NCBI GenBank assembly: GCA_021779855.1
Contig: JAJXZW010000017.1
Span: 1 to 33,869, forward strand
Source of the DNA: Actinomycetes bacterium
GTDB taxonomy: Bacteria > Actinomycetota > Acidimicrobiia > Acidimicrobiales > RAAP-2
Length of the DNA stretch: 33,869 nt
Direction: 5' to 3'
Below are positions 2,991 to 23,785 of the stretch, piece by piece. Within the stretch, counting starts at the first letter, position 1; every line of letters starts with the position of its first letter. The notes beneath the pieces were generated by a model. It worked only from the letters and a program-made list of their open reading frames with translations. It did no database searches and was not told the DNA's origin. The position numbers and the translations under genes were made by a program.

Positions 2991-4567
2991 GCCCGGCCCT
3001 CGCCGTCGTTACGGCGGCCGCCCTCACGCTCGCCTGGGTCGCCCAGATGGCCCGCTGGCTGCGGGTCCTGCAGCGCGAGCACTACGACGCGCGCGCGATG
3101 AGCCGGTTCCTCGGGCGATGGACCTCGCCGCCGGCCCCGTCGGCGCGGGCCCTGGGCTCGCGCGGGCCCACGAAACGGCTGCCGCGACGTCCCTTCACCC
3201 TGAGCCACGCGCTGATCCTCGTGGTGGCGATGAGCCTATTGCTGCGAGCCGACGGGCTGCTCGTCGCGGCCACCGTCGTCTACGGGGCCCTCTGTCCGGT
3301 GGGGCTCGCGCTGCGCGGGCGCACCGGTGCGCTGGTCTTCACCCAGCGGCTCACGACGACCGCGGTCGTGGCCGCGGTGGTCTCGGTCGCGATCGCCGCG
3401 GTGAGCCTCGCCACGTCCCGCCCGTACCTGGGCGCGGTGGTGGCGGTGTGGGCGGTCCCCCCGGTCCTCGACCTCGTGACCCGCCTGCTCAAGCCGCTCG
3501 AGGAGCGCCGCGCCCGGCGCTTCGTCGAGCGCGCGGCGCGGCGGCTCGCCGCGGTGCATCCGCGCGTGGTGGGGATCACCGGCTCCTACGGCAAGACCTC
3601 GACCAAGAACCACCTCGCCCAGCTGATCCAGGGCACGCGCGCGGTGGTGGCCACCCCGCGCAGCTACAACAACCGGGCCGGCCTCTCGCGGGCCATCAAC
3701 GACGGCCTCGTCGAGGGGACCGAGGTCTTCGTCGCCGAGATGGGCACCTACGGACCGGGGGAGATCCGCGAGCTCTGCCGCTGGTTCCCGCCCGAGGTCT
3801 CGGTCGTCACGGCCATCGGGCCGGTGCACCTCGAGAGGATGGGCAGCCTCGACGTCATCGAGACGGCCAAGCGCGAGATCACCGAGCGGGCGACGACGGT
3901 GGTGCTCAACGTCGACGACCCGCGCCTCGCGGGGTGGGTCGCGCCGCTGCGGGTGGCGGGCAAGCGGGTCGTCACCGCCGCCAGCGCCGGCCCCGCCGAC
4001 GTGCGCGTCGCGCACGAGGGCGACCAGTGGCGCGTCGTGGTCGGGGGCGAGGAGGTCGCCTGCTCGCCGGTGCCGGTGGGCGTACGGGCCACCAACGTGG
4101 CCTGCGCGATCGGCGCGGCCCTCGCGCTCGAGGTGCCGCTCGAGGCCGTGGTCGCGGGGCTCGCGCGCCTCGCGCCGGTCGAGCACCGCCAGGGGGTCGC
4201 TCGGGCGGCCTCGGGCGTGGTCGTGATTGACGACACCTTCAACGCGAACCCGGCGAGCGCGATGAGCGCCCTCGAGTCGTTGCGCGAGGTCGAGGGACCG
4301 GGCCGCCGGGTGGTCGTAACCCCGGGGCTGGTGGAGCTGGGACGCGAGCAGCACACCGAGAACCTGCGCCTCGGGCGGCGCATCGCCGCCCTGGGCGCCG
4401 AGCTGGTGGTCGTCCAGCGTACCAACGTGGTGGCGCTCGCCCTCGGGTACGAGCGCCCGCTGCGCCGCTTCGACCGACGGGACCAGGCGGTCGAGTGGGT
4501 GCGCGCGAACCTGGGCGAGGGCGACGCCGTCTTGTACTTGAACGACCTGCCCGACCACTACCCTTGA
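2987..4567 (+). CDS. murF: Membrane-anchored MurF-type Mur ligase
   Basis: This is a Mur ligase family protein most like UDP-MurNAc-tripeptide:D-alanyl-D-alanine ligase, which adds the terminal dipeptide to the peptidoglycan precursor using ATP. Of 526 residues, roughly 1-170 hold hydrophobic membrane segments (about 2-20, 72-105, 122-145 and 147-165). The ATP-binding loop GITGSYGKTSTKN follows (196-208), then SYNNRAG (226-232), EMGTYGPGEI (251-260), IGPVHLERMGS (277-287), NVDD (308-311) and DDTFNANPAS near residue 420. The usual soluble MurF N-terminal substrate domain seems replaced by the membrane part. The GTG start at 2987 overlaps the hydrolase stop by 4 nt, and a D-Ala-D-Ala ligase gene follows 30 nt later, which supports the function. 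Confidence 0.82.
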   Translation: MSPALAVVTAAALTLAWVAQMARWLRVLQREHYDARAMSRFLGRWTSPPAPSARALGSRGPTKRLPRRPFTLSHALILVVAMSLLLRADGLLVAATVVYGALCPVGLALRGRTGALVFTQRLTTTAVVAAVVSVAIAAVSLATSRPYLGAVVAVWAVPPVLDLVTRLLKPLEERRARRFVERAARRLAAVHPRVVGITGSYGKTSTKNHLAQLIQGTRAVVATPRSYNNRAGLSRAINDGLVEGTEVFVAEMGTYGPGEIRELCRWFPPEVSVVTAIGPVHLERMGSLDVIETAKREITERATTVVLNVDDPRLAGWVAPLRVAGKRVVTAASAGPADVRVAHEGDQWRVVVGGEEVACSPVPVGVRATNVACAIGAALALEVPLEAVVAGLARLAPVEHRQGVARAASGVVVIDDTFNANPASAMSALESLREVEGPGRRVVVTPGLVELGREQHTENLRLGRRIAALGAELVVVQRTNVVALALGYERPLRRFDRRDQAVEWVRANLGEGDAVLYLNDLPDHYP

Positions 4568-18004: not shown

Positions 18005-19117
18005 ATGAGCCCCCGCGCGGTCCCGACGCCGTTCGTGCCGATCGATCGGCCGGTGCGAGCCGCCTTCGTGGGCCTTGGTCGGATCTACGACCTGAACGTG
18101 CGCGGCTACCGGGACAACGGCGACGTTCGCGTCGTGGCCCTGGTGGACCCGAACCCGCAGCGCCTCGCGCAACGTCAGTCCGACTGGCCTGAGGCGCGCA
18201 CCTTCGCCTCGGTCGAGGAGTTGGCCGCCAGTGACCTTGCGGTCGACGCCGTGGAGGTCCTGCTGCCGGTCGCGCTGCACGAGTCGGGCGCGGTCCAGTG
18301 CCTGGAGCAGGGCTGGCACGTCAACCTGCAGAAGCCCTTCACGAACGACCTGGCCAGCGCCCGGCGGGTCATGGACGCGGCGCACGACCACCGCCGCCAG
18401 TTGCGGGTGATGGAGAACTACCTCTTCTACGAGCCGCTGCTCCGGCTGAAGGCGGCGGTCGACTCCGGGGCGCTCGGGACGATCAGTGGCTACCACCTGA
18501 AGATGGTCGCGAGTGGCCGTGGGGGGTGGGAGGTGCCGGGCGACACGTACCGGTGGCAGTTCGAGCAGGCGCGCCGTGGTCGCGGGGTGCTCCTCTTCGA
18601 CGACGGATGGCACAAGCTCTCGACGGCGATCTGGCTGTTCGGCCCGGTCAAGGAGGTGCGCGCCTGGGTGGGCGCCACGGAGGTCGTGGAGGGACTGGCG
18701 ATCGACGCGCCCACGACGGTCGTCTGGGAGCACGTCAACGGCGTGCGCGGCGTCTGGGACATCACGCTCGCGGTCGACATGTACCTGCGCTCGGACTACT
18801 ACACCAACGACGAACGCTGGGAGGTGACGGGACGACGGGGATTCGCCCGAGTGAATCGCTGCACCGGCCGGGGCCTGCAGCAGCCGAGCCTCGAGATGTA
18901 CCTCGACGGCGAGATGCGCGCGTACCACGCGCTCGACGACGACTGGGCCAGCAGCTTCCGCGACTCGGGGCGTCACTGGCTGCGATGGCTGCGCACCGGC
19001 GAGGGGCCGCTCCTGTGGGGGCCGGAGGACGCGCTCGACGTACTGCGCTTCGCGCTGGCCGCCTACGAGAGCGACGCCAACGGCGGCGTGGGTGTCGATC
19101 CGAGGCTCCTCGCCTGA
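18005..19117 (+). CDS. Gfo/Idh/MocA-family oxidoreductase
   Basis: This is an NAD(P)-dependent sugar or cyclitol dehydrogenase-type protein of 370 residues. The Rossmann start is AAFVGLGRIYDLNVRGYRDN (about 19-38), followed by VVALVDPNPQRL. The family EKP motif reads QKP (HVNLQKPFTND), keeping the Lys but replacing the Glu. The C-terminal beta-sheet domain (from residue ~130) contains LLFDDGWHKLSTAIWLFG, where the family's catalytic G-x-x-x-D-x-x-x-H type region falls. The ATG is preceded by TATAACT ending 7 nt upstream. Part of the gene is duplicated at 21073-21583. The substrate is unknown. Confidence 0.85.
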   Translation: MSPRAVPTPFVPIDRPVRAAFVGLGRIYDLNVRGYRDNGDVRVVALVDPNPQRLAQRQSDWPEARTFASVEELAASDLAVDAVEVLLPVALHESGAVQCLEQGWHVNLQKPFTNDLASARRVMDAAHDHRRQLRVMENYLFYEPLLRLKAAVDSGALGTISGYHLKMVASGRGGWEVPGDTYRWQFEQARRGRGVLLFDDGWHKLSTAIWLFGPVKEVRAWVGATEVVEGLAIDAPTTVVWEHVNGVRGVWDITLAVDMYLRSDYYTNDERWEVTGRRGFARVNRCTGRGLQQPSLEMYLDGEMRAYHALDDDWASSFRDSGRHWLRWLRTGEGPLLWGPEDALDVLRFALAAYESDANGGVGVDPRLLA

Positions 19118-20831: not shown

Positions 20832-21072
20832 CTAGGCCAGCCAACAGGAATAGGCAGGGCCGGATGAGGTCAACGTTGACGCGTCGGTTGCCGACCCGGT
20901 CCGGCGGCTTCGTGGTGGCGAGAGCGGGGTGCGAGGAAGCGGTGGGTGCGCAAGATCGCCGAACATGATGACGGGTCAAATCGTGCGGCGAACGTCAGGG
21001 CTGAGAAGCCGGTCCCGCTCGGCGCGTGGTGAAACTCGCCGGCGTGGTGGAAGTCGCCAGTCGTTCGCCGGT
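20832..21072 (+). other. Spacer between secreted pair and oxidoreductase copy
   Basis: This 241-bp stretch holds no supported gene. It contains the perfect 12-bp palindrome GTCAACGTTGAC (20869-20880). Its end, just before 21073, is the breakpoint where the oxidoreductase copy begins. Confidence 0.5.
20869..20880. repeat. 12-bp perfect palindrome GTCAACGTTGAC
   Basis: This even, gap-free palindrome lies 38 bp after the second secreted-protein gene. It could be a protein-binding site or a short recombination-related repeat; nothing in the context decides. Confidence 0.4.
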
Positions 21073-21583
21073 CCCTTCACGAACGACCTGGCCAGCGCCC
21101 GGCGGGTCATGGACGCGGCGCACGACCACCGCCGCCAGTTGCGGGTGATGGAGAACTACCTCTTCTACGAGCCGCTGCTCCGGCTGAAGGCGGCGGTCGA
21201 CTCCGGGGCGCTCGGGACGATCAGTGGCTACCACCTGAAGATGGTCGCGAGTGGCCGTGGGGGGTGGGAGGTGCCGGGCGACACGTACCGGTGGCAGTTC
21301 GAGCAGGCGCGCCGTGGTCGCGGGGTGCTCCTCTTCGACGACGACTGGGCCAGCAGCTTCCGCGACTCGGGGCGTCACTGGCTGCGATGGCTGCGCACCG
21401 GCGAGGGGCCGCTCCTGTGGGGGCCGGAGGACGCGCTCGACGTACTGCGCTTCGCGCTGGCCGCCTACGAGAGCGACGCCAACGGCGGCGTGGGTGTCGA
21501 TCCGAGGCTCCTCGCCTGACTCCGGCCGCGGCGAGCGAGACCTCAGGGACCTTCGGAGCGTGCGCGATCGGGGCGCGCCGCGG
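21073..21583 (+). pseudogene. Partial, internally deleted copy of the Gfo/Idh/MocA gene
   Basis: The copy starts abruptly at the codons for the PFTNDL region and lacks the Rossmann domain. It jumps from position 18605 of the source to 18942, removing exactly 336 bp (112 codons) between two TCGACGACG repeats (18597-18605 and 18933-18941). The frame is kept, and it continues to the same stop (21517-21519) plus about 64 bp of flank. The remaining parts look identical to the source. With neither the NAD-binding domain nor most of the C-terminal sheet, it cannot be functional. An open frame extends upstream to 20929 but has no resemblance to the true N-terminus. Confidence 0.93.
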
Positions 21584-21858: not shown

Positions 21859-21864
21859 TAGGAT
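21859..21864 (+). promoter_or_regulatory. Candidate -10 box of the metal-transporter leader
   Basis: TAGGAT at 21859-21864 lies 28 nt before the small leader ORF. If it is used, the transcript has a leader of nearly 290 nt before the transporter start. No good -35 is visible. Confidence 0.4.
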
Positions 21865-21891
21865 TCGAGGCTGAGCACGAAGGAGGTGACG

Positions 21892-21957
21892 ATGCGCAGC
21901 GAACCCCCGAGTAGTAGGTCCGCCGGCCCGTCCCTCCTGGTGCTGCGCGAGATCTAG
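21892..21957 (+). CDS. Putative 21-codon leader peptide of the metal transporter
   Basis: A 21-residue ORF begins MRSEPPSS and ends LLVLREI. It is preceded by a near-perfect ribosome site (AAGGAGGTGAC, AGGAGG at 21881-21886), which is exceptional in this window. It carries an early Glu-Pro-Pro and a Ser/Arg/Pro-rich middle. Such acidic-proline leaders are known to destabilise ribosomes in low Mg2+ in MgtL-type leader peptides; similarity here is in composition only. It is followed by structured RNA and a second small ORF before the NRAMP-family gene. Its function as a leader is inferred from position, strong initiation and length. Confidence 0.5.
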   Translation: MRSEPPSSRSAGPSLLVLREI

Positions 21958-21994
21958 TCCAGAGCATCTCCAGCCGCATCCGGGACGGCCGGCG
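21921..21994 (+). promoter_or_regulatory. Long-range RNA stem in the transporter leader
   Basis: CGCCGGCCCGTCCC (21921-21934) can pair with GGGACGGCCGGCG (21982-21994): 13 pairs with one bulged C, looping out the end and stop of the 21-codon ORF. CCTCCT at 21933-21938 overlaps the first arm and could instead pair with AGGAGG of the leader ORF ribosome site, so two exclusive structures are possible. A further GCGCC-CTT-GGCGC hairpin follows around 22000-22012. Confidence 0.45.
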
Positions 21995-22046
21995 TTGGCG
22001 CGCCCTTGGCGCACGCGTTCACGCCCTCAGAGCCTCCGGAGCAACC

Positions 22047-22160
22047 ATGTCTTTCCTTCCCTTTTCTCGCCGTACCGCACGATCGCGATCCGCCGCTCGT
22101 GTTCGCACAATCCTTCGCACGCCCGTGGCGGCTGCCTGTTCGCGGGTGCTGCGCCGGTGA
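22047..22160 (+). CDS. Second small upstream ORF, overlapping the transporter start
   Basis: The 37-residue ORF MSFLPFSRR...SRVLRR is very basic. It has GGAG 7 nt before its ATG, and its TGA overlaps the GTG of the transporter (GTGA). Translation through it would bring ribosomes to the transporter start, so it may be a coupling ORF rather than a functional peptide. The support is the ribosome site and the exact overlap; there is no homology evidence. Confidence 0.4.
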   Translation: MSFLPFSRRTARSRSAARVRTILRTPVAAACSRVLRR

Positions 22161-23785
22161 GCGCGCGCGACCACGTCACCGAGTCCGCGGTGCTTGACTC
22201 CGCCCACGTCGGCGATATCACGGGGGCCTTCGGATCCATTCCCGCGCACGACCACGGTCCCCGCCGGGGACTGTCCGCGCGGGCCAAGACGCTGCTCGCG
22301 ATCATCGGGCCGGGCCTGATCGTCATGGTGGGGGATAACGACGCGGGGGCCTTCTCCACCTACACCCAAGCGGGGCAGAACTACGGGGTGCGCCTGTTGT
22401 GGACCCTGGTGTTGCTGGTGCCCGTGCTCTACGTGAACCAAGAGATGGTGCTGCGCCTGGGAGCGGTCACCGGGGTCGGCCACGCCCGACTGATCCTCGA
22501 GCGGTTCGGTCGCTTCTGGGGGTCCTTCAGCGTGATCGACCTCTTCATCCTCAACGCCCTGACCATCGTCACCGAGTTCATCGGGATCACGCTGGCAGCG
22601 GGCTATCTCGGGATTCCGAAGTGGCTGGCGGTCACGCTGGCCGCCGTCGTCATCGTGGCCGCGGCGTCGACCGGCTCTCTCCGGCGGTTCGAGCGGGTGT
22701 GCATGGCCCTGGTCGCCGGGTCGTTCCTGCTCGTGCCGGTCGTCCTCGCTGTCCACCCCCCGGCCAGCGCGGTCGCGAAGGGATTCCTGGTTCCGGGGAT
22801 GCCCCCGCACGCCCCGCTCTCGACGGTGATGCTGCTCATCATCGCCATCGTGGGCACGACCGTGGCACCCTGGCAGCTCTTCTTCCAGCAGTCCTACGTG
22901 ATCGACAAGCGGATAACACCGAGGTTTATCGGTTACGAGCGCGTCGACCTCTGGCTGGGCATCGTCATCGTGGTGATCGGGGCTGCCGCCATGTTCGGGT
23001 TCTCCGACGCGGCGTTCTCCGGGACGGCGGGCGCCGGACACTTCACCAGCGCCGCCGGCGTCGCCGCGGGTCTGGCGCACCGGGCGGGTCACGTGGTTGG
23101 CGACCTGTTCGCCCTGGCGCTCCTCGACGCGTCGATCATCGGTGCCTCGGCCGTCGGCCTGTCGACGGCCTACGCGGCGGCCGACGTCGCGGGCCGGAAT
23201 CACTCGCTGCACCGCTCCGTCGCCACCGCCAAGGGCTTCTACGCCACCTACGGGCTCCTCATCGTGGTCTCGGCGACTCTGGTCGTGATTCCCGGGGTCC
23301 CGCTGGGGCTGCTGACCGAGGGCGTGCAGACCCTCGCGGGCGTCCTCCTGCCCAGCGCCACGGTGTTCCTGCTGCTGCTGTGCAACGACCGTCAGATCCT
23401 CGGGCCCTGGGTGAACTCCTCCGCCAAGAACGCGTTCGCGGGGGCCGTCGTCTGGATCCTCGTCATCTTGTCGGTGGTCCTAACCGCGAGCGTGCTCTTC
23501 CCCGACATCAGTGGGCGACAGATCGAGATGATCCTGCTCGTCGGGGCCCTCCTCGGCGTCCTCCTCGCCGTGGTCATCGGACGCGTCGCCGCTCTCCCGG
23601 CGGGGGCTGCGGTGCCGTCGCGCGACGACAGGCTCAACTGGAGGATGCCGAGGTCGGCGCTGGCGGACCGGCCGTCTCTGACACCTCAGGTGAGGGTGGG
23701 CCTCGTCGTGCTGCGCGGCTACCTGCTCGTGGCCTTCCTGCTCGTCATCGTCAAGGTCGTCGAGGTCGCGGCCACGAGCCGATGA
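22157..23785 (+). CDS. NRAMP-family divalent metal transporter
   Basis: This 542-residue polytopic protein has about eleven membrane helices and is of the NRAMP (MntH/SLC11-related) family. Helix 1 holds GPGLIVMVGDNDAGAFSTYTQAG, where classical members have the metal-binding DPGN. Helix 6 holds VGTTVAPWQLFFQQS, where classical members have the metal-ligand Met in an MPH motif. The loss of that Met groups it with the divergent branch that includes Mg2+ and other non-classical transporters; the ion is therefore uncertain. The GTG start overlaps the stop of a basic 37-codon ORF, and a longer in-frame extension is possible but unsupported. A leader of almost 300 nt with a strongly initiated small ORF precedes it, suggesting post-transcriptional control. 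Confidence 0.87.
   Translation: MSARDHVTESAVLDSAHVGDITGAFGSIPAHDHGPRRGLSARAKTLLAIIGPGLIVMVGDNDAGAFSTYTQAGQNYGVRLLWTLVLLVPVLYVNQEMVLRLGAVTGVGHARLILERFGRFWGSFSVIDLFILNALTIVTEFIGITLAAGYLGIPKWLAVTLAAVVIVAAASTGSLRRFERVCMALVAGSFLLVPVVLAVHPPASAVAKGFLVPGMPPHAPLSTVMLLIIAIVGTTVAPWQLFFQQSYVIDKRITPRFIGYERVDLWLGIVIVVIGAAAMFGFSDAAFSGTAGAGHFTSAAGVAAGLAHRAGHVVGDLFALALLDASIIGASAVGLSTAYAAADVAGRNHSLHRSVATAKGFYATYGLLIVVSATLVVIPGVPLGLLTEGVQTLAGVLLPSATVFLLLLCNDRQILGPWVNSSAKNAFAGAVVWILVILSVVLTASVLFPDISGRQIEMILLVGALLGVLLAVVIGRVAALPAGAAVPSRDDRLNWRMPRSALADRPSLTPQVRVGLVVLRGYLLVAFLLVIVKVVEVAATSR

Follow-up and report, generated by a model that had tools for sequence, protein, structure and literature searches.

A candidate MgtL-like leader upstream of an NRAMP-related, putative Mg2+ transporter gene in an actinobacterial genome

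MgtL-type sensing of Mg2+ has been described for enteric bacteria (PMC11282234, PMC6460261). In the first of these accounts, full translation of the leader in high Mg2+ makes a Rho-dependent terminator accessible, whereas in low Mg2+ the ribosome drops off at the EPDP codons, after which refolding of the RNA allows transcription of mgtA (PMC11282234). The second describes stem-loops B and C and an effect of elongation factor P (EF-P) for mgtL (PMC6460261). Regulation by the M-box (ykoK) riboswitch is known for nrmT genes, and NrmT was recognised through the M-box, mostly in Clostridia and Deltaproteobacteria (PMC4072509). EleNRMT of Eggerthella lenta carries Mg2+ and Mn2+ (PMC8806188). Here we analyse the leader of an NRAMP-related, Mg2+-transporter-like gene (NRMT) in a 33,869-nucleotide contig of an Acidimicrobiales bacterium (JAJXZW010000017.1, assembly GCA_021779855.1), called the window below. 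On balance, and with some reserve, we favour the view that this region is a MgtL-like, translation-dependent attenuator of an NRAMP-related Mg2+ transporter operon, made of open reading frames ORF1 and ORF2 and the NRMT gene, which an early ribosome stall switches on. The parts of the leader are the following.

21859-21864, forward strand: candidate -10 box TAGGAT, from the sequence; a full sigma-70 site was not found, and the enrichment of TANNNT in related leaders is weak
21880-21887, forward strand: Shine-Dalgarno (SD) sequence of ORF1, AAGGAGGT (AGGAGG at 21881-21886), found at the same place in relatives
21892-21957, forward strand: ORF1, predicted 21-codon leader peptide MRSEPPSSRSAGPSLLVLREI (MRSEPPSS...), stop TAG at 21955-21957, from reading of the ORF and comparison with relatives; its coding signature comes from the KPPST paralogs described below
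21901-21912, forward strand: Glu-Pro-Pro-Ser codons of ORF1, the serine being AGT at 21910-21912; motif kept in relatives
21921-21934, forward strand: segment A, putative antisequestor arm within ORF1, from the 13-pair stem, duplex energy against shuffles and A:B covariation in the paralogs
21982-21994, forward strand: segment B, partner of A, 3' of the ORF1 stop, from sequence and folding
21976-21983, forward strand: segment B', which is predicted to pair with the ORF2 SD while a ribosome lies over A (pair probabilities 0.85-0.99)
22035-22042, forward strand: segment C, including the ORF2 SD (GGAG at 22038-22041), from sequence and folding
22047-22160, forward strand: ORF2, basic, 37 codons, MSFLPFSRRTARSRSAARVRTILRTPVAAACSRVLRR, from reading of the ORF
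22157-23785, forward strand: NRMT gene, 542 codons, from Pfam PF01566, the match to EleNRMT (7qia) and the binding-site residues

The landmarks on which the first-pass annotation of this leader had built were all recovered: AGGAGG followed by the 21-codon MRSEPP frame, a 13-pair stem (A with B, C21929 bulged) that encloses the ORF1 stop, and the basic ORF2, whose TGA (22158-22160) overlaps the transporter GTG (22157-22159) as GTGA. No SD of its own is seen upstream of this GTG in the window, and small ORFs overlap the NRMT start in 6 of the 11 loci of the window clade (L002, L063, L078, L080, L081 and the window; L numbers designate loci, L001 being that of the window). From the folding reported below, together with the overlap of ORF2 and the transporter gene, the controlled SD would be that of ORF2, to which the transporter would be coupled. 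In the proposed mechanism, ribosomes would translate the ORF1 leader; one that has passed Glu-Pro-Pro-Ser(AGU) and lies over A would free B, which would pair with the ORF2 SD and turn off ORF2 and the coupled transporter. A stall or drop-off at those codons, as for MgtL in low Mg2+, would instead let A:B form, leaving the SD free and the transporter made. We infer both the polarity of the switch and the early stall or drop-off as its sensor.

The likeness to MgtL (for mgtA; MgtP for mgtCBR) lies in a short leader ORF 5' of a known or, in the window, probable Mg2+ transporter gene, and may extend to early acidic and proline codons (EPDP in MgtL, EPPS in the window) and to alternative stems chosen by the progress of the ribosome, a choice which folding of the window supports and equilibrium folding of the KPPST paralogs does not. 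There are also differences. The gene downstream is an NRAMP relative (PF01566) and not the P-type ATPase mgtA, which places the window leader outside the MgtL family; SD sequestration would take the place of Rho-dependent termination; the acidic residue is missing from 86 relatives, all scored motifs have an AGU serine, and the host belongs to the Actinomycetota.

Conservation of ORF1 was assessed on loci gathered with the NRMT protein, which matched in 47 of 61 relatives, 74 of 296 genomes of the phylum (E 1e-30), 92 of 99 of the genus (E 1e-100) and 77 of 298 of the order (E 1e-100). Some matches at contig ends were left out, and removal of L031 (same site as L144) left 201 loci, with 1 base (L065) to 1500 bases of upstream DNA. 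These comprise 86 loci of a paralog group chosen by a nucleotide motif (the KPPST group, nearly all from the window's own genus) and 115 outside it; 80 named loci fetched later bring the total to 281. The leader criterion, an SD followed by M.{0,9}[EKDQNR]P[PHRG]S, was written after seeing the data, and CTG starts were allowed in the KPPST set. A regular-expression search for leaders matched at 122 of the 201 loci, four matches (L049, L092, L093, L199) being dropped by eye as chance; fifteen leaders were added by eye before the fold, PPS/M-box and AGT/TANNNT counts. Shuffle statistics throughout are uncorrected for relatedness.

Such leaders were found at 40 of the 115 loci outside the KPPST group (0.1 loci with shuffled upstream DNA, none on the reverse strand) and at 83 of the 86 inside it (0.15 and none); on the 80 later loci the same fixed motif gave 4 matches (shuffles 0.1). 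The KPPST leaders, (M)KPPS..., have 24-25 codons in 60 of 86 cases, an SD mostly of the AAGGGGG type, and start with CTG (82), ATG (3) or TTG (1). They bear a clear coding signature: over codons 2-6, entropy at codon positions 1, 2 and 3 is 0.03, 0.09 and 0.54, pairwise codon differences are synonymous in 3286 cases and nonsynonymous in 487, and of 85 distinct leaders 83 keep the frame open over 16 codons, the other frames being open in 53 and 25. Of 99 genomes of the genus, 89 contain the nucleotide pattern of the KPPST site, in a single copy save for one genome with two, and the reversed pattern has no match. The window leader is part of a sister set, with MRTEPPSRWSAG... (L002), MRTEPPSRWSVG... 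(L061), MRTEPPSRRSVG... (L062), VRQPPSTWRSP... (L003), MKSDPPSTWRL... (L078), MSSKPPSTRP... (L064), VRSEPPSTTPH... (L185) and others. The motif-leader counts against shuffles and the KPPST coding signature rule out that ORF1 is a chance ORF. On this comparison ORF1 is a conserved leader ORF, its conservation pointing to its translation. The Glu-Pro-Pro singled out by the first-pass annotation fared less well: the Pro-x and the AGU serine are constant in this leader type, but the acidic residue is not general, 86 relatives having Lys-Pro-Pro-Ser.

The serine of the motif is encoded by AGT in all 128 scored leaders, 86 of 86 in the KPPST group and 42 of 42 elsewhere (42 of 47 leaders could be scored there, the other 5 lacking P[PHRG]S), while over the first 900 bases of the transporter genes AGT accounts for 6.7 % of serine codons. 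This bias was not built into the search, which used amino acids. It is not universal among NRMT leaders, since that of L284 (MPDPEPGPCTTRR...) has no AGT in codons 3-10. One reason for the constraint would be a decoding step that hangs on a weak G-U wobble pair beside proline, or else an RNA contact.

The window stem, as judged by its position and folding, is the counterpart of a pairing, A:B, found in the KPPST paralogs. It starts at the S-A-G codons after EPPS, and the stems of L002, L061 and L062 start at S-A/V-G. As low a duplex energy was reached by 7 of 200 shuffles of A for the window, 1 for L061 and 9 for L062, and for L001 and L061 the best-fitting B is their own. Given its composition, the region made of the 3' half of ORF1 and a further 90 nucleotides folds unexceptionally (z -1.28). 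A ribosome over A lets the ORF2 SD pair with 21976-21983 at a probability of 0.85-0.99 (0.92-0.99 for 21976-21981), and with a ribosome at EPPS there is no pairing there. In a second calculation, accessibility of the window SD was 0.43 with a stalled ribosome, 0.07 with A covered and 0.33 with a ribosome at the stop. Four other loci of the clade follow the model (stall against A covered: L002, 0.38 and 0.25; L061, 0.48 and 0.20; L064, 0.58 and 0.27; L079, 0.43 and 0.24).

A second pairing proposed earlier did less well. CCTCCT does sit at 21933-21938, overlapping the stem, but its masking of the ORF1 SD is one among several possible pairings in the window, and the partner of the leader SD in the paralogs is a different one, the proline codons, for which covariation is limited; as the main switch this masking is weakened by the window folding, and its paralog counterpart is weak. 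TAGGAT fits a -10 box for the candidate promoter placed at 21859, but a sigma-70 scan of the window did not find a complete site there, and TANNNT boxes 5' of related leaders are only modestly enriched (22 of 47, shuffle mean 14.0, maximum 20).

In the KPPST paralogs an anti-SD lies directly 3' of the leader stop, and the transporter SD (C) is enclosed by the long hairpin that this anti-SD closes. The 5' arm of the hairpin (B) can alternatively pair with the second half of the leader (A). Both A:B and B:C use B and are thus mutually exclusive. The mean energy of the own A:B duplex is -24.2 kcal/mol, compared to -21.2 with the B of other loci and -19.5 with shuffled A; the own duplex is the more stable one in 50 of 62 loci when set against the cross mean and in 56 of 62 when set against the shuffle mean. 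Covariation was scored on an alignment (A1) of 39 KPPST loci chosen for length and a TQLR-like motif. For A:B, 18 double-change cells were counted against 6.8 in shuffles, with a score of 0.225 against 0.178, and for B:C 36 against 20.1, with 0.192 against 0.148; none of 500 shuffles was as high for either measure in either pairing, and sliding the partners lowers both scores. Double changes affect 6 A:B pairs (11 of 500 shuffles as high). RNAalifold proposes, unaided, the A:B core and a small 5' hairpin. For the stem of the window the conservation check has two outcomes: the paralog A:B covaries above all 500 shuffles by score, but in the window its counterpart is seen by folding only.

The window transporter belongs to the NRAMP family (PF01566). 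Its best match among solved structures (PDB) is EleNRMT, 7qia, at E 3.3e-47, the next being at 2.1e-16. Judged by the motifs given for NRMT proteins (including Gly in the helix 1 motif and TxxA in helix 6; PMC8806188), the window protein keeps the helix 1 Asp (D62), the helix 6 TxxA (T234, A237) and Gln Q391. The TxxA it shares with EleNRMT implies that the Met of the transition-metal binding site is absent. It differs from EleNRMT by Ala65 in place of Gly in the first motif (DxxA, not DxxG). All 11 window-clade loci and 75 of the 80 named loci have DxxA, and DxxG is the form in 85 of 85 scored KPPST loci and 98 of 99 other scored loci; by this distribution the DxxA variant marks a clade. M-boxes were found 5' of both types, 13 of 21 checked M-box loci being DxxA, with the M-box confirmed by Rfam in three of those 13. 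On these sequence grounds Mg2+ is the likely substrate of the window transporter. The source genome holds two more NRAMP relatives, at G000:C24:11999-13543 (47 % identity) and G000:C51:3667-4746 (38 %); the former, on contig 24, has a KPPST leader. Such NRMT genes were also noted in 41 plasmid records, from Burkholderia, Rhodococcus, Streptomyces and other genera, and plasmid carriage may help explain their spread.

Mg2+ is probably also the signal. The M-box and the window leader share a gene family and an upstream place; the main argument for Mg2+, an indirect one, is that the leader stands where homologous genes carry a Mg2+ aptamer. By Rfam, M-boxes (RF00380) lie 5' of NRMT genes at 11 of 20, 2 of 18 and 4 of 20 loci in three sources that were chosen and not random. 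The window has instead a leader ORF. The first-pass annotation had recognised no known Mg2+ or Mn2+ riboswitch motif in it, and the ykoK and yybP-ykoY covariance models agree: they gave no match in the window at the gathering score and none in L001 at E up to 0.5. At the gathering score an Rfam scan of the window found no riboswitch, its sole match being a distant tRNA, and no M-box was found in 99 genomes of the genus, two control genomes being positive. A known riboswitch in the window leader is ruled out by these scans of the window, L001 and, for the M-box, the 99 genomes.

Over the 281 loci, Rfam and a regular expression together showed no M-box at any of 132 loci whose leader is of the PPS, PRS or PHS type, and an M-box at 30 loci that have no such leader. 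The regular expression recovers 13 of 17 Rfam hits, with no false match among 41, hence M-box counts outside the Rfam-scanned loci are lower bounds. Set aside in these counts as another type were the leaders of L036, L196, L041, L042 and L043, which adjoin M-boxes; at the last three loci, from other Actinomycetota, the leaders MDSEPGS, MESDPGS and MESDPGH follow the M-box (by Rfam in L041 and L042, by the regular expression in L043). M-box and acidic-proline leader can thus stand in series. In seven loci (L087, L088, L089, L091, L093, L164, L178) a recurrent stretch, GGAG...CTGA(A/G)CGC(C/G)GA, was noticed by eye between M-box and transporter; it could be another leader ORF (xAD...).

The earlier proposal that the leader reports metal status through translation of ORF1 is partly supported, by the conservation of ORF1, a stem that fits a ribosome-dependent switch, a gene nearest to the Mg2+-type NRAMP proteins, and homologous genes that often have an M-box. 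A number of results weigh against the early-stall attenuator. Lys, and not an acidic residue, precedes Pro-Pro in most relatives, and the window protein does not have the DxxG of the NRMT motif. Neither a PPS-type leader nor an M-box was found at 119 of the 281 loci. Proline leaders and the M-box can occur together: L041 and L042 (EPGS and DPGS, among the 40 of 115) have an M-box, and the MSP.DSPYP leaders of L036, L196 and L277 also adjoin one. In the window clade, the A:B duplex of L002 does not stand out from shuffles (64 of 200 as low), and the B of another locus suits L002 and L062 at least equally well. With a ribosome at EPPS the window SD (22038-22041) is only 0.07-0.33 unpaired, because of weak local pairing, for instance with 22049-22056. 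L062 opposes the model (0.31 stalled, 0.53 with A covered), and in L003, L063, L078, L080 and L081 the two states differ by at most 0.08. In the KPPST alignment the number of B:C pairs with double changes is unexceptional (8, with 107 of 500 shuffles as high and one slid control at 9), RNAalifold does not propose B:C, and the significance of both pairings against shuffles is uncorrected for relatedness. Finally, the KPPST sequestor forms at equilibrium in nearly all states, which does not support an early stall as the ON state: mean SD accessibility is 0.22 with a ribosome at Pro-Pro, 0.27 with A covered and 0.51 at the stop, in 57 of 62 loci the SD is more accessible with the ribosome at the stop than at Pro-Pro, and in only 33 of 62 is it more accessible at Pro-Pro than with A covered. 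Since these folds hide the SD in most states, an early-stall ON state would need co-transcriptional kinetics, A:B forming before C is transcribed.

The same accessibilities favour an opposite wiring of the same parts, in which the SD would be hidden by default. A ribosome arriving at the ORF1 stop would open it by sitting on the anti-SD strand, so that the ON state would come from a completed and not an aborted leader. Low Mg2+ would then raise occupancy of the stop through a melted leader-SD hairpin or a pause at the stop. The position of the KPPST anti-SD directly after the leader stop and the pairing of the SD in 46 of 62 minimum-energy folds fit this wiring, as does the pairing of the leader SD with its own proline codons in the small 5' hairpin (94 % of cells paired). 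However, it leaves A:B without a role, although A:B covaries at least as well as B:C; in the window, access with a ribosome at the stop (0.33) is below that with a ribosome at EPPS (0.43); and the leader-SD hairpin covaries weakly on the 39 loci (its number of double-change cells is reached by 54 of 500 shuffles, and one slid control scores higher), the window ORF1 SD being an imperfect complement of its proline codons. Over 86 loci its central pair is G-C in 75, A-U in 4, A-C in 4 and G-U in 3 (Fisher p 0.001, relatedness uncorrected). We regard this wiring as unlikely, if worth keeping in mind. A true translation-dependent attenuator might also respond to something other than Mg2+, such as the charging of proline or serine tRNA, EF-P activity or the general rate of translation. 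In favour of this are the Pro-Pro codons, the invariant AGU codon and the EF-P effect described for the proline codons of mgtL and mgtP (PMC6460261). Many other members of the gene family carry a Mg2+ riboswitch, however, and in the KPPST operon of L012 the gene upstream has MgtE_N and CBS domains; we consider a signal of that kind improbable. An RNA element (an undescribed riboswitch or a protein site) in which the open frame is incidental would account for nucleotide conservation beyond codon needs, such as the invariant AGT and the CGTTC before the SD. It is very hard to reconcile with codons 2-6, whose third positions vary while the first two hardly do, with the excess of open frames, with start codons that interchange between CTG, TTG and ATG, and with leaders of other sequence that keep an SD and a short ORF; we give it hardly any credence.

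The early-stall attenuator may have counterparts beyond the PPS type. A criterion chosen after inspection, namely a short ORF that follows an SD and has an early proline together with AGT somewhere in codons 3-10, selects 44 of the 80 named NRMT loci and leaves out 36; shuffles give 0.35 and the reverse strand gives 0. The leaders so selected are MDCSSPGHSRP-like in Streptomyces and Kitasatospora, MSP[SG]DSPYP in Mycobacterium, MPDSDSYP in Paraburkholderia and Trinickia, and MDPDPSWRRR in Pelomonas. It is conceivable, though we doubt it somewhat, that one functional class of very short leaders (EPPS/KPPST, MDCSSPGHSRP, MSPSDSPYP, MPDSDSYP, MDPDPSWRRR and others) governs NRAMP-type Mg2+ transporters across Actinomycetota and Pseudomonadota, reading Mg2+ by stall or drop-off at early proline and acidic codons around a near-universal AGU, and replacing or accompanying the M-box. 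A conserved leader-peptide attenuator 5' of a Mg2+ transporter family other than that of mgtA, at the site where homologous genes carry an M-box, would mean that sensing of Mg2+ by the translating ribosome is widespread and interchangeable with an RNA aptamer, and many natural leader variants would be at hand to learn which codons make a ribosome sensitive to Mg2+, with the AGU codon as a concrete lead. A search of open PMC full texts, judged by title and abstract and with subscription papers outside its scope, returned no description of leaders of this type upstream of NRMT genes. In Pfam and NCBIfam no meaningful family was matched by any of the ten leaders and small ORFs compared, the one Pfam match (E 0.2) being far below cut-off. 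On the plasmids that carry the leaders VNDGHSPSTGTAFARS (L283) and MPDPEPGPCTTRRAFSQNAARFA (L284) no gene is annotated at these places, in gene tables that are incomplete.

Further small ORFs were seen between leader and transporter. In betaproteobacteria (L230, L233, L245) one reads M.F.LLLS..P...R.HYD and looks conserved, L208 being a looser match, and in the mycobacteria-like loci L036, L196 and L277 another, which also looks conserved, reads M.FVV..R...T.QERAN.YV.RM; it is possible that these are small partner proteins of the transporter. In L007, a match to a group II intron domain (RF02003) lies at 3234-3368, 3' of the NRMT gene. Just 5' of the window leader, at 20929-21519, we noted by eye a partial, internally deleted copy of an oxidoreductase-like ORF (18005-19117), which we take to belong to the Gfo/Idh/MocA family.
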